A stretch of 64,000 nucleotides of DNA. Origin: Callorhinus ursinus. Taxonomy: Eukaryota; Chordata; Mammalia; Carnivora; Otariidae. Numbering within the stretch: the first letter of the stretch is position 1; each line of letters starts with the position of its first letter. This document shows positions 12,354 to 45,561 of this stretch, in pieces. The notes under the pieces were generated by a model. It did no database searches and was not told where the DNA came from. It saw nothing but the letters and a program-made list of their open reading frames with translations. A program made the position numbers and the translations under genes. Where the stretch lies: assembly GCF_003265705.1 (NCBI RefSeq), contig NW_020312848.1, forward strand, positions 56,153,707 through 56,217,706, in the 5' to 3' direction.

Positions 12354-12541
12354 AGGGCGCCTGGGTGGCTCAGTTGGTTGGGCGACTGCCTTCGGCTCAG
12401 GTCATGATCCCGGAGTCCCGGGATCGAGTCCCGCATCAGGCTCCCTGCTCGGCGAGGAGCCTGCTTCTCCCTCTGGCCCTCCCCCCTCTCATGTACTCTC
12501 TCTCTCATTCTCGCTCTCTCAAATAAATCTTTAAAAAAAAA
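12354..12541 (+). mobile_element. Can-SINE, GGTTGGGCGACTGCC subtype
   Basis: A young-looking full-length copy with head GGGCGCCTGGGTGGCTCAGT and the word ggttgggcgactgcc. Target duplication ending ..aaaataatgggga on both sides (to 12353 and after the poly-A). The same subtype occurs at 20708. Confidence 0.92.
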
Positions 12542-38991: not shown

Positions 38992-39067
38992 TAATGCAGA
39001 AAGCCTGGAGAGAAAGAAACCCCCAAGCTAGAATTTCTGCAGCTCATGAAGCCTTAGAGATAAATGA
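38992..39067 (+). CDS. ST7: ST7 coding exon, probably exon 6 (76 nt)
   Basis: The acceptor is a T-rich tract ending ..aaaatag at 38991 and the donor is gtaagt at 39068. TA completes the Ile codon from the previous exon. Twenty-four codons read MQKAWRERNPQARISAAHEA then LEIN, and the last two bases (GA) begin a Glu codon. The Glu is completed by A if the optional exon at 41251 is included, or by G if splicing goes directly to 43239. Both choices keep Glu and the frame. The helical, charged sequence suggests the start of the cytosolic repeat region. Confidence 0.92.
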
Positions 39068-41250
39068 GTAAGTGGGGGAAAATCTTGCTTTTAAAAAGGA
39101 AATCTCATCCTTTGCTGAATGTATTCAGTTGCCATTAATAGAATACTTAAGTTAAATTATGCATTTGAACTTGAGGATTGTTTTGGGAGTTATTAATTTG
39201 TCAAAAATTTTTTTTGTGAAGGACATCCATGTGATGGTGGTTTTAGTCATCTTAGAGAGCAATTCAGTGGTTTTGCTATGACCCTAACTTAAATAGCTTC
39301 CAAGGGCTATTCCAAGGCTTCCAAGCCCTTTTAAGGACTACCGGTGGGATATTGTAAGGACATAAAATAAATACAGTTCTTTACATATCTAAAACATATT
39401 GACAGGGAGATTTTTTTCAGATGTAGAATGCTCATCTCTGCCATCATATTTTTTAGGTAGAGCTTCTGCTAGTGGGGAAAAGAGAACAAAAACATAAGGT
39501 GAAAAAAATTGCACTTTAAAAGTATTTCAAGATCAAGACAAAGATAAGACGAAATGCTGTCGTTAGTGTTGTCAAACATGCTGTGGGTTACCAAGGAAGG
39601 CTGGGAAATATCTTCTGGAGATCTCAGAAAATGGGAAAGATTCTTAAAATTGGAGTCATAAAATCTCAGGGTTGGCAGAGGCCTTAAAGGTCATTTAGCT
39701 CAACCACCCATCTGGTGTTTGAATCACCTCGACACTCTCCCTTCCAAGTGGTCATTGTTAAACTATTTTATGATTTTTTTGAAGAAGGTTACAGAATCTT
39801 CACTGGAGGTCTTAGAAAAAAAGATTCACTTGAGAGTTGGAAATCCTGCCATTGTAACCTGTTGATCTATTTGGTTTCTGCTTCTGTCATACAACGTATT
39901 TATTTTCCAGTTTCTTGTCATCTACAAATTTGATATGCCTGCCTTCTGTGTGTCATCCATGTTTCTGATAAAAATGTCAGGATCAGGGACAGAACCCGGT
40001 GACATGACATATACAGACTATCCTCCAGGTTCATGTCTTCATGACTCATCATCCCTTGGTATTGTTCAACCAATTACTAAGCCACCCAAGTTACACTGTG
40101 ACTCAGCTCATATTTCTGCATTTTGATCTTAAGAATGCCAGTTGTAGCTATGGATCTTTATTGTGTAGTAAATTCTTTAAAGTAAATTAAGCTAGCACAA
40201 CCTGATTTATTTATTCTTAGTGAATTAAAGCTAGCTTCTATTTTCACTACTTTCTTTTAAAACTGCTTGGAGACCATCCCTTTAATAATCCATTAGAATA
40301 TCTTTACAAATCACTGTTCTGTAGTTTGGGAAGTCTGCCTTCTTCCCTTTTTGAACATTTTTACTGCATTTGTCATCTCATCTTCTAGCACCTGTCCATT
40401 CTTTGTGATTCCTTAACTATCCACAGAGAGCACTTCCCTGCCTGTGGGGTCTGGTTGGCTTCCTGGGATTTGCCTATCCCAGTACAGTAATTCATTTAGG
40501 ATAGTTCAGTTATTTGCTATCTTACATCTTTTTACCCATGTTAGAGTTTAATTTCTTCTCCCTTTTTCAGCCCGACAATCATGCTCCTTGATAGAGAAGC
40601 CAGGAAAAAAATAGGAGTTACGGAGTTTTGCTTTCTCTTTATTATCTGCTGTTACTAACTACAAACTTTTCTTGTTTTCATGTGGTTGTTGTGTTGTTTG
40701 TCTTTTTTGCTTATTTATTTTTGCGATGGTTGTAGAGAAATGGGGGTGGTAATAGGGCTTTAAAAGTAATTTAAAAACAGGGAATAGATGGTTGTCTTTA
40801 GCATTTTGTTGTGTCTTTATTTTGCTTTGCAAGCTTCAGCTAATTTGGAATTTTAGCTCTCCTGACATTATTCTTATTAGCTCATTCCACTCTCTTGTAG
40901 TCCTTCATTACATGCCCTCTTTCCATCTTTTTTTACATGTCCTTTAAGAATCTGACCTTGTGAGAGATCTCTGTGCAGCCATATTGGTTACTTAATTGTC
41001 ACCCCTCTTTTCTTCCTGAGAGGCTCATTTGTGACTATGGTGATAGTTGGACATTTGGAAGCTGCCCGACCCTCTTAAACCATTTTTTTCCTTCAGAGTC
41101 TCATGCCATTGATTCATACCTCTTTTCTTTGAAGTTTTTGAAGTCCACATTACCCTCTCTGATTATCCTGAATCCAAAATGACATAGTAACTCTCTCTGA
41201 ATGTTCCTATCAATTTTCATTTCACCAACTATTTTTTTCTTCTTGGTCAG
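39068..41250 (+). other. ST7: ST7 intron upstream of the optional exon (2.2 kb)
   Basis: The first 570 nt hold nothing assignable. From about 39645 onward the intron is an antisense CR1/L3-type LINE fossil that runs through the optional exon. The intron ends in the LINE-derived acceptor ttttttcttcttggtcag. Confidence 0.75.
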
Positions 41251-41900
41251 AATTAGGTCCAGAGTTGAAGTTCCCCTAATTGCTTCCTCTACCATCTGGG
41301 AGATAAAATTGTTACCAAAGTAAGTCAAGAACCTGTCGGGTGCCCTACTTCTAACCAAATGAGACTTCTTCTAGCAGATATCTGGATGGTTGACACCCCC
41401 ATCACCATACTTTCTTGCTTCTGTCTGTGTATTGTGTTGTGACAAGGATGCATCATCTATATCTTCCATCGAGCTGAGCCGTCGTTCTGTACTCCCCAAC
41501 CATTAGCACTTCTATTGCTCTTTCTCCTTCACTCACAAGCTCTTAGCATGTTTCTACCCCAGACTCATGACTTTCCACATAGATATATGTTTTCTTGGCT
41601 AGTAGTGCTACTCTGCCTCTCCTCCTAAGAATACTATGTGAAATATAAATAAAGAAAGCACGTAACTTGCCCCCACCTGTCTTGAATTCCCAGCCCACTA
41701 ACTATAATCTTATAGCTAATTCCTCTGATACTATATCCACCACTCAGTATTATAATCTCAGTTTTCACTTCATTACCCTTGACCCATATGTATATGTCAG
41801 CATCTGAAGCCTTAAGTAGTGCTTCCTGATGCCTGTCCCAGTTATTTTCTCTAGTGAATCGCTGGGCAGTTTCAGCATCATTATTGTTCTTTCTAAGTCC
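39645..41900 (-). mobile_element. Ancient CR1-clade (L3/CR1-type) LINE fossil, antisense to ST7
   Basis: Read on the - strand, 41230-41400 contains the endonuclease signatures NHPDIC (followed by a stop where Trp is usual), RFLTYFGNNFISQMVEEAIR and TLDLILT. Near 39955-40010 a degraded reverse-transcriptase block reads PGSVPDP..IFI, corresponding to the family's PQGSVLGP..IFI. The + strand start at 39645-39700 has the antisense CR1 3'-end pattern (ggttggcagagg..aaaggtcatttagc). The order of 3' end, RT and endonuclease along the + strand fits a single antisense copy with internal deletion. The outer limit near 41700-41900 is uncertain. It contains the optional ST7 exon at 41251-41319. Confidence 0.78.
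41251..41319 (+). CDS. ST7: ST7 optional (cassette) coding exon, 69 nt, 23 added residues
   Basis: The acceptor is a strong pyrimidine tract (ttttttcttcttggtcag) ending at 41250, and the donor at 41320 is a perfect gtaagt. The exon enters and leaves in phase 2. Its 69 nt insert I-R-S-R-V-E-V-P-L-I-A-S-S-T-I-W-E-I-K-L-L-P-K between the residues ..EINE and CATAY.., with no stop. The insert matches the extra segment in the longer human ST7 isoform as I remember it, so it is a real conserved alternative exon. The same DNA read on the other strand encodes a fossil CR1-type LINE endonuclease (NNFISQMVEEAIRG), so the exon arose within an antisense retrotransposon copy. Confidence 0.88.
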
Positions 41901-42424
41901 TATATCTGCTGCCCTCCATAGTAATTGGTTTTACAGCATTTTTCTGGGCATTTTTTCTCCCTACTGCCCCACATTGTGTTTAAAGCCCCATTGATCAGTC
42001 CTGCATGTAATTAGAGGGACTGACCAAAGAATTGACAAGACTCCTCCTCAAGGCTAAGATTAACTAGTCACCCCAAATCTCCCATTGGCTGTAAGTTCAG
42101 CCTCATTTTCCTAGCTGGGCTGTTGCAGTTTATGAATGGTAAAAGTAACATTTGGTTTCACTTTCTGTTTATTTTCTCTCTTGTGGTCTGATGGAGGTTC
42201 TGACAAGTAGGGAAATGACCACAAGAGAGGCAGTGGGGAAGAAGGAAAGCAGAGGGATCTATGCAGTTTGGGACCTGTATGGTCGGCTCCGGCCTCACTG
42301 TTTCCTATCACATTCCCTTTCTTTGGCAGTCGGGTTGTTCTGATATGATAGGGAAGGTTGAAATTTCCAAGAGTTCCCCTTGTTTGTTAGTTAACTGCTT
42401 ATCCTTTCCAGCTTCCTAGCTTAG

Positions 42425-42520
42425 AGGTTGTTGAAAGGATTAAATGAGACGATGTATGTTGAGTGCCTGGTACAGTGCTTACTATATACTGAGCAACAGG
42501 TGGTGGTAGCTATTACTGTT
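42425..42520 (+). mobile_element. MIR SINE 3' fragment
   Basis: Pattern ggattaaatgagacgatgta .. agtgcctggtacagtgctta. Confidence 0.65.
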
Positions 42521-42834
42521 AAAGGTGTGAGATGGAACTCTTGTTCGCTGCTGAGGCTGAATCAGATTTTGAGCTCTTCAGAAGTAACACTACCTGTAGG
42601 TTCTTCTAGTGTTCTTCTCTGACCCAGAAAATCAGTGCTGACTGTAATGAAATGTTGAAGCGCTGTTTTTTTAATGAGTAATCGATCCGATTTAATGAAC
42701 TTCTGATTCTGAAGAAATCCTTAGATTCCAGAGAATCCATATTTAGTGAATAGAAGGAAACTTGTCTGTAGGATCTCTAACTTGGAGAGCTGGAAGGAGA
42801 TCTTTCCCAACAGCTCTTGTCATTGCCATTGTTG

Positions 42835-43015
42835 GTTGACACTGACTGAGTATGTACCCCATGCCGGCTACTGTACTGAGCACTTCACATGCATCACCTT
42901 ACTTAACCTTTGCAACAACACTGTGAACAAATCAGTTTCATGTTGTGCTCCATCAGGGAGGCAGAGTAATAACTTGCCCAAAGTGACACACTAATAAGGG
43001 GCAGAGTCCATTTGT
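42835..43015 (-). mobile_element. MIR SINE fossil
   Basis: Antisense pattern actgtactgagcacttcaca, tgcatcaccttacttaacct, acttgcccaaagtgacacac. It ends about 220 nt before the 155-nt ST7 exon. Confidence 0.75.
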
Positions 43016-43238
43016 GAGCCCCACGTTCCTAACACTACACATCCTACCTTTCAAGCTAAAATATAGGCATTTCTTTTGTGTCATTATTTTGTGTCAACAA
43101 CTACAAACCAGGGGTGCATGAACCAGTTGGCCACTCTGCATGTTTTGGCATAACTCCTTGCCCTTCTGCATGCACTCCTCCAGCTGTGACAATATCCTTG
43201 GATTTGTAATTGATGGTGGCTATTATCTGAATGGACAG

Positions 43239-43393
43239 GTGTGCGACTGCTTATATTCTCTTGGCTGAAGAGGAAGCAACAACCATCGCGGAAGCAGAAA
43301 AACTGTTTAAGCAGGCCCTGAAGGCTGGAGACGGCTGTTACCGGCGTTCTCAGCAGCTACAGCATCATGGATCCCAGTACGAAGCCCAACATA
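43239..43393 (+). CDS. ST7: ST7 coding exon (155 nt), CATAYILLAEEEA region
   Basis: The acceptor is ..atggacag ending at 43238 and the donor is gtaagg at 43394. One base completes Glu (or Lys, if the optional exon is included). Fifty-one codons follow, including CATAYILLAEEEATTIAEAE, KLFKQALKAGDGCYRRSQQL and QHHGSQYEAQH. The final A starts an Arg codon. The Ala/Glu-rich paired-helix pattern (AEAEKLFKQAL) is TPR-like and is a conserved core of the ST7 family. An open frame from 43231 to 43437 overlaps both splice sites; the exon borders are set by AG/GT and by phase. Confidence 0.94.
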
Positions 43394-45561
43394 GTAAGGT
43401 TTTCTCCAGGCTGACGTGTTGGGGGTCAGAACTGTAGCATGATTAATCAGAACAAATGTTCAGGCCAGTTCAAAATATGGTTGTCTGAGATGAAAATAAA
43501 GACTAGTTTTTGCCTTTCTGTTATTTTTTTTCCTTCCCATAAAAGCACAGTATGTAATTAACTTATAGCTTCATTACTGTTCACATTCATTTTCAGATTC
43601 TTTCCTAATCTTTAGATCCTTAACTCTAGAAATAAATGGTAATAACCTTTAATGGTAACCTTTTTTTCTCCTCAGAATTCTTATATATTTCTGTTTATTA
43701 GTTGTTTCTCTGCCCCATAACCTAAGGCCTACTTGGGAAACAGGACTTAAATTTATGTTAATGTAATCAGAGTTTTTCTCTTACAAGTCTTCTACAGCAT
43801 GGGTTGAAATAGGACAACTAAGAATATCATAGTTATTGGTGATTATCTCAGTATTTAGCTTATTGGTATTGGCTTCCAGAGATTAAAAAAGTCATGAGTT
43901 TGTAATTATTTATCTTTTTTATATTAAAAATAGTGGCTGCTTTTATTTAAGATAACTCTTTAAAATGAGGCCTTTCACTTTAGTACACTAAACAGAGGGT
44001 CAGTGATATTTTGGGGGAATGGTATAGAAACAAGATAAAAAAATTGTTTCTGGAATTCCTGGAGCTGACTTGTCAGTTTTTTGGTTGTTTAAGTAGAAAT
44101 TTAATAATCATTTCATTTTCCATTCAGACTTTAGGCTGTTTCCTTAAAGTGGAATTTCTCAACATATTTTCCCCTCCTGCATCTTGGAGAGTAGGATTGC
44201 ATCTCCTTCATATTTGAGATTATAAAATTAAATTTTAATGCTAAACTTGGATTTGGTGCAGAGAATGAGTGCATTAGTCCTTATGACTAAGGTACAGCAA
44301 GATCTTTGATCTTTGTGTGTATACATGAGTATGTCCACCCAACACAATAATACATGAGTTTTTATTTGCATTCTGCAGTATGTATGTTAATCAAGCCTCG
44401 AACCATATATCTATTGCTTTTTTTAAAAAAAAAATTATAACAATGAATTTTGAAGGCATTTGTATCATAATGTCTATTTTGTGAACTAAATGAGAATTAA
44501 CACATAAAATTACATTACCTATAATATAACTTAAGAAATTTTCTTTATTTCTTTTCTTCTGTAGATTAAATCCTTTCAACCTGTTACCTAAATCTATCCA
44601 AAAAATATAATCACATCTTTAAAATAATTTGTAGGCCCTTGGCAGATTTTCAGCACACATCTTGTTCTCATTGTTTAAAACTTGAAATGTTAGGACTTTG
44701 GTCTTAACATCTTTTAATAGCTGCATATTATACATGTACTTAATCTATAACAGGTGTGTCATATTTTTCTAAAACATGGTAATTTTATTGAGGATTAAAT
44801 GCATGCATGTTCTCACTGGTCTAGAAACATATGCAAAATGACATATAATTAAATAAAAGATTAAGATGAGAAGTTGTTAATGTACTTTTTAAGAGCCGTT
44901 TTAGTGACTATTATTATAACTAGTTAGCTTGTCAGTGCTTTCTCTAACACTAGGGTAGTTTTCATTTTGTTGCGTACTCTATTGTCATATCTGGAATGTG
45001 TTATATTGCCATCTAAAATAGACTGCTTTGGGGACCTGGAGATGATTATGATGTCACTAGTTTTAGGGAAAGAATAATATAAAACAGAAGTTCAAGATGA
45101 GGCTTCTCCAGACTTAATGTCAAGAAGGAAAAAAAATAGTTCATCAAGATGCAACCTGAGATTCACCTCTTTGCATCTCCACCAAAAGCATGCAGACTTG
45201 AAGAATATGGAATTCTTGCTTATAAACCACATTCAATGTGGGTATGTTCATTTTCCCAGCACTTTGTGGCAGATGATTTTATTTATCAAATACTCAACAT
45301 TCTAACTCAAAAGCATGGATTAGGTAATCAGTCACATGATTTGACCTTTGGAAATCTAAGTATTTTGACTACACTGTATGCATTTTACTATTAGCAAAGT
45401 TGTCAGTGTGCCTGGCAGTAAGAAAAAGCCAAAGGAGCGCTTTGTTCTCTCTGAGGTTTTCCTTTAAGGGCATCGCAAATGGGCCTCTGTATTTTTTTCT
45501 TGCTGCTCAGCTGAAAGCTTTTGTATTTTTAAATTTTGGTATTTTATATTTCCTTCTTCAG
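43394..45561 (+). other. ST7: ST7 intron between the 155-nt and 98-nt exons (2.2 kb)
   Basis: No SINE, L1 or other named repeat is visible. It is AT-rich. An open frame of 81 codons at 45149-45394 has no recognised homology and no clear splice context. Confidence 0.75.

Follow-up and report, generated by a model that had tools for sequence, protein, structure and literature searches.

An optional coding exon of ST7 lies antisense within a CR1-type LINE endonuclease fossil and encodes an identical insert in the placental proteins that carry it

An optional 69-nucleotide coding exon of ST7 lies entirely within the fossil of a CR1-type LINE, on the strand opposite the element's endonuclease gene. 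On the basis of a 64,000-nucleotide stretch of the Callorhinus ursinus genome (the window), we hold it very likely that, ahead of the placental radiation, an intron of ST7 received a CR1-type LINE in antisense orientation, and that part of it became an in-frame cassette exon that likely tunes a tissue-dependent interaction. The anatomy of the exon, its homology to CR1 and its identical sequence among the placental representatives are shown here, and tissue-dependent splicing in mouse is in print; the date of the insertion, selection on the protein, the placement in a loop and the effect on an interaction are inferred. The existence and alternative use of the exon were already known.

Comparison of a human ST7 protein with the window gave eight collinear segments on the plus strand, with IRSRVEVPLIASSTIWEIKLLPK at 41252-41320 and 100% identity. 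The exon, called exon 7 in the literature, occupies 41251..41319 (+) and encodes these 23 residues between an upstream exon at 38992..39067 (+), which ends in EIN(E), and a downstream exon at 43239..43393 (+), which begins with (E/K)CATAY and both of whose ends we read by hand. At the first junction the upstream ..AATGA is joined to A and gives E; at the second, ..CCAAA is joined to the G of the next exon and gives K, followed by CATAY. The window sequence thus confirms what the preliminary description had read from it: a length of 69 nt (a multiple of three), phase 2/2, 23 residues between EINE and CATAY, an acceptor AG and a stop-free reading frame. Only one of the three sense frames of the exon is open, and it is the frame that continues ST7. 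The exon is preceded by CAACTATTTTTTTCTTCTTGGTCAG and followed by GTAAGTCAA. The polypyrimidine tract and acceptor AG (41226..41250, +) end in ..ttcttggtcag, with 83% pyrimidine across the 18 nt ahead of the acceptor CAG, and the donor (41320..41325, +) reads gtaagt. This donor had been called perfect; it is so at positions +1 to +6, but the final base of the exon is A, where the consensus has G.

The antisense strand across this exon is a degraded CR1-type endonuclease with its following linker, interrupted by stops and frameshifts (40810..41626, minus strand; tblastn 41499-40810, frameshift-aware alignment 41626-40812). A bait search gave 120 CR1-type proteins, those named being from birds and three turtles. 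The best E value in tblastn (6e-16) belonged to the antisense match of a Pelodiscus protein (P0110) at 41499-40810, while a Caretta protein (P0102) matched antisense at 41400-41200 with 46% identity over 67 columns (E 4e-14), in an alignment that spans NHPDIC and the LDLxLT motif and whose single gap falls outside the ST7 exon. P0102, P0098 and P0110, which are the turtle proteins with names, gave the top three local alignments to the fossil, and P0110 has PF14529/PF03372. The fetched CR1-type proteins align throughout the exon, the polypyrimidine tract and both splice sites, so that the exon and both its splice sites lie inside the antisense element, as had been proposed. NHPDIC and LDLILT do flank the antisense reading NNFISQMVEEAIRG.., which is also real; in the fossil, though, an in-frame TAG stands directly after NHPDIC and keeps this stretch from being a single open frame. 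A Pfam scan of four antisense fossil fragments returned no families. Just past the endonuclease match, at 41634-41930 (minus strand), we observed a 98-codon antisense ORF running from stop to stop, without a Pfam family.

These matches are far above chance. When the window was searched by tblastn with the 120 CR1-type proteins, the top score was 70.9 bits, compared with at most 32.0 bits in 50 dinucleotide-shuffled windows and 25.8 bits in the reversed window; other places in the real window all gave 38 bits or less. In frameshift-aware alignment, P0110 scored 256 over 41626-40812, and the maximum over the full fossil region was 67 in 100 shuffles with four EN proteins and 64 in 8 shuffles with all 120 proteins. 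The exon with its flanks (41190-41380) scored 124, against maxima of 50 (200 shuffles, four EN proteins) and 53 (40 shuffles, all 120), and the 69 nt alone scored 65, against maxima of 37 (200 shuffles, four best proteins) and 41 (40 shuffles, all 120). The first nulls were made with four EN or six RT proteins, mostly chosen for their fit to the real sequence; nulls with all 120 proteins cover five of the six regions (that is, without 41401-42500), with 40, 40, 40, 20 and 8 shuffles. The region 41401-42500 alone gave a CR1 score of 51, which was matched by 11 of 200 shuffles with the picked-protein set and is not significant. Plus-strand scores fell inside the null range in 6 of 6 regions tested. 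The preliminary description had allowed that no CR1 match might be found in the exon region; there, both the tblastn and the frameshift-aware matches exceed all shuffles, and the CR1-type proteins together with the shuffle controls support a CR1-type endonuclease on the antisense strand as the source. Better preservation of the exon than of its flanks relative to CR1 was considered and rejected: identity is 38% in the exon and 36% outside it (104 of the 120 proteins covering).

The splice signals can be read against the CR1 coding sequence. Opposite the acceptor CAG is the LDLILT leucine, a residue common to all 14 aligned CR1-type proteins, and opposite the pyrimidine tract is the run of lysines after it, at the place of N-x-E in CR1; tract and acceptor AG together are antisense to fossil L-T-K-K-K-K (L-T-N-x-E in CR1), and the donor is antisense to the fossil codons ACT TAC. 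The idea that CR1 antisense offers a ready-made acceptor was judged from protein sequence alone. CR1 DNA was sought in viral_contigs and genome_contigs, giving 30 and 37 pattern matches, none of them a relative. The 120 proteins yielded 88 with the motif, from which 23 without a scorable leucine were dropped to leave 65. Prediction of the acceptor from CR1 protein gave a purine fraction of 0.68 versus 0.58 and placed the site among the three best leucines in 14 of these 65 proteins. A pyrimidine-rich acceptor thus appears moderately favored by CR1 protein sequence, a signal on which we rest no conclusion; because the tract is only moderately favored, the exon probably needed later mutations.

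The distribution of the insert points to an insertion older than the placental radiation. A search with ST7 residues 165-290 gave 1344 proteins, and we compared the best 120, which are representatives of 90% identity clusters: 27 have the exact insert, 68 have none, 14 have a shark-type insert and 11 have other sequence at the junction. The exact insert stands directly at the junction in 26 of these; in the remaining one, an Ursus arctos isoform, an extra exon precedes it. All 27 insert-bearing representatives among these best 120 are placental, and all 23 residues are identical in every one, across elephant (Elephas, Afrotheria), rodents, rabbit, bats, carnivores, whales, camel, deer and primates. 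This supports the earlier claim that the element was inserted before the placental radiation and its product kept as in-frame protein. The group without the insert takes in Sminthopsis (P0230, the one marsupial in the list), Gallus (P0233) and some placental forms, while the 11 other junction sequences (Emys, Buteo, Naja and eight fish models) may be gene-model errors. The exact insert occurs in no non-placental cluster among the best 120 of 1344, a set that has one marsupial cluster and in which merging at 90% identity could conceal a copy in marsupials; a recognizable insert in another representative should outscore the no-insert level and therefore be listed.

The exon is present in transcripts, as judged from 27 of the 120 listed ST7 clusters, which are largely predicted proteins, and from published mouse RT-PCR (PMC2687791). 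In that work St7 exon 7 is alternative, with tissue-dependent inclusion by RT-PCR, and its inclusion across tissues is correlated with that of Kifap3 exon 20 and runs against that of Map3k7 exon 12; the paper notes that Vincent et al. had already seen alternative use of exon 7. The mouse forward primer spans the window junction 37097/38992 with one mismatch, and the reverse primer matches at 43320 with two. These primers bracket 41251..41319, and thus the variable exon of that study is the one lying between 39067 and 43239, in agreement with the optional use claimed for it. Could the exon derive from CR1, yet encode a neutral peptide, so that splicing or RNA-level regulation is what is kept? 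Many forms lack the insert (68 of the 120 listed clusters, placental ones included), and the peptide is dispensable in those isoforms. We nevertheless consider this reading improbable, because all 27 insert-bearing clusters, which range over elephant, rodents, bats, whales and primates, have the same 23 residues, and because the frame and phase of the exon are kept. Judged from this protein identity, which is among representatives of 90% clusters, the insert may be under purifying selection.

The weak TPR matches that Pfam gave on P0145, at 300-327, are below cut-off, and PDB sequence searches with ST7 and with an 89-residue antisense ORF gave no matches. Two AlphaFold2 models of ST7 are poor, with mean pLDDT of 39.8 and 41.7. 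The placental model has the insert at 215-237, where it leaves the end of helix 199-219 as coil and reaches helix 239-248, and in the shark model the insert (216-241) lies between helix 200-219 and helix 243-252. In both, the insert is mostly coil between two helices, with pLDDT below 50 over most of its length. The models offer a lead, namely that the insert may form a loop between two ST7 helices.

The element extends well beyond the endonuclease. Frameshift-aware alignment traces the fossil from about 41626 to the FVDD box of the reverse transcriptase (RT) near 39910, and the heavily decayed CR1 RT part (39910..40800, minus strand) ends in KFVDDKKL (the FADD box). A Caretta protein of the RT set (P0346) scored 144 over 41172-39910, in an alignment that closes on KFVDDKKL; this fossil-aligned relative has RVT_1, and RT lies downstream of the endonuclease in the same orientation. 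The RT part (39000-40800) scored 109 with six RT proteins, against a maximum of 65 in 200 shuffles, and 118 with all 120 proteins, against a maximum of 56 in 20 shuffles. By tblastn, 120 RT proteins gave weak pieces at the locus, with a best E of 0.008 and bits no better than elsewhere in the window, and a single CR1 RT sequence gave nothing at this locus; tblastn without frameshifts sees the RT part weakly, and it stands out only under frameshift-aware alignment. On these sequence comparisons we regard the exon and RT parts of the CR1-type fossil as secure.

CR1 elements have an octamer repeat motif, ATTCTATG, at the 3' end. A search of the whole window for two tandem units with up to three mismatches found no match, and a repeat search of 39500-43500 gave short pairs only, with nothing readable as element ends. 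Absence of the octamer is also expected for a decayed, truncated or L3-type end, and we therefore call the element CR1-type (CR1/L3 group) rather than CR1 in the narrow sense. The same absence, together with baits that were both CR1-type and a comparison set without L2 or Rex proteins, is what favors a source in a sister LINE clade such as L2 over CR1/L3; against the identity to the Caretta CR1-type protein, which includes NHPDIC and the LDLxLT motif, such a source seems quite unlikely. Elsewhere in the window, copies of CTGGGTGGCTCAG occur at 12361, 17108, 20717, 29858 and 51600 (+) and at seven minus-strand places; we take these to resemble carnivoran tRNA-Lys SINEs, which makes a carnivoran source of the window probable.

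Sharks, rays and skates also have an insert at the ST7 junction corresponding to window 39067/43239. It is a conserved segment of 24-26 residues, IFYHWRPLLQPLQAKRRTQNGIKFTI and near variants, in 14 of the 120 listed clusters (P0152-P0159, P0162-P0164, P0168, P0200 and P0208). Shark and skate inserts are alike (score 86, reached by 0 of 1000 shuffles), whereas homology of the shark and placental inserts is not supported (score 15, reached by 520 of 1000). The similarity of the placental to the Buteo insert was reached by 25 of 1000 shuffles and, as one of 15 comparisons, is no surprise. Thus, although these cartilaginous fish share the junction, it is exceedingly improbable that the placental exon is an ancient vertebrate cassette with no connection to LINEs and that its antisense CR1 resemblance is coincidental, given that the two inserts are unlike and that CR1 homology is above the nulls at the exon and runs on for about 1.3 kb to one side. 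We also observed that the Acipenser sinensis ST7 model (P0121) has IMQKAWRERNPQAR..YEAQH twice in tandem, either a duplication or an assembly error.

The brown bear isoform has a further segment at this junction. Ursus arctos P0148, alone among the 120 listed, adds PKIMLLDREARKKK immediately before the CR1 exon. The counterpart of this extra 42-nt exon lies at 40571..40612 (+) in the window, preceded by AATTTCTTCTCCCTTTTTCAG; the acceptor is present, and the donor position reads AGGAGT rather than having GT, so that this genome would not splice a bear-type exon alike. The counterpart lies opposite a collinear CR1 match, LVTxDxEKAxxLNxFFASVF, at the RT start of the fossil. The segment 40540-40680 scored 52, which none of 200 shuffles reached with six RT proteins (maximum 47) and 1 of 40 reached with all 120 (maximum 57); its putative CR1 match is weak by itself and rests on collinearity. 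We therefore put forward only tentatively, and as the less probable view, that the phase-2 helix-to-helix loop junction of ST7 is a repeated site of exon birth, having received the antisense CR1 exon in placentals, an unrelated conserved segment in sharks, rays and skates and, in bears, another exon out of that CR1 fossil. Our estimate is lowered by the weak match of the bear segment under the 120-protein null and by the shark insert being at most putatively optional. Repeated exon birth at this junction, if true, would suggest selection for an adjustable insert there, and the unrelated shark insert provides a comparative test of why the site takes inserts.

For the placental exon, our preferred reading of an exonized antisense CR1-type LINE would proceed as follows. 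The element would have entered the ST7 intron in antisense orientation ahead of the placental radiation, and mutations would have made a cassette exon from part of the antisense of its endonuclease gene. The acceptor and pyrimidine tract would have arisen across from the conserved L-T-N-x-E motif, and the donor across from the codons just before the G-D/N-N-F motif. Having a length divisible by three and matching phase, the exon adds 23 residues when included and leaves the downstream frame unchanged. The insert would likely lengthen the loop between two ST7 helices and thereby tune a tissue-dependent interaction.

We found no paper that names the ST7 exon as CR1- or L3-derived, although an unnamed table or a RepeatMasker track may already hold this origin. 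The background of PMC2394776 names MIR and CR1 as possible contributors to human proteins; in the parts of that paper covered here, Sela et al. (2007) count 12 CR1 exonizations in coding genes in human and 0 in mouse, and describe six human-mouse orthologous TE exons, four from MIR and two from DNA elements, none from CR1. Among 241 human-mouse conserved skipped exons in UNCOVER (PMC1185642), one derives from an L3/CR1 LINE in a gene that the portion covered leaves unnamed; it may or may not be the ST7 exon. UNCOVER also reports an ST7 exon without prior EST evidence, which is presumably different from the 69-nt exon, and PMC4365034 deals with ST7 exon 11. Ancient LINE-derived coding exons that are common to placentals with unchanged protein are seldom documented, and this one is easily missed, the element being both old and antisense. 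As a case in which a transposon's noncoding strand turned into protein, it can be put to the test.

The ST7 exon is a case of a known process, transposable-element exonization, and is marked by its unusual age, its position on the strand opposite a LINE gene and its constant protein sequence. Like the exonized MIR, Alu and other elements of PMC2394776, it is an intronic transposable element turned cassette exon; unlike the cases in the parts of that paper covered, it reads a LINE endonuclease gene antisense and gives the same protein in all insert-bearing placental representatives. It shares with the L3/CR1 exon of UNCOVER (PMC1185642) the status of a conserved skipped exon from an L3/CR1-type LINE, and it is the same exon as St7 exon 7 of PMC2687791, where the parts covered do not mention a transposable-element origin. 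As in L1TD1 (PMC4161310), LINE sequence has been kept as mammalian protein; L1TD1, however, keeps LINE-1 coding sequence, whereas the ST7 exon is the strand opposite the LINE gene.
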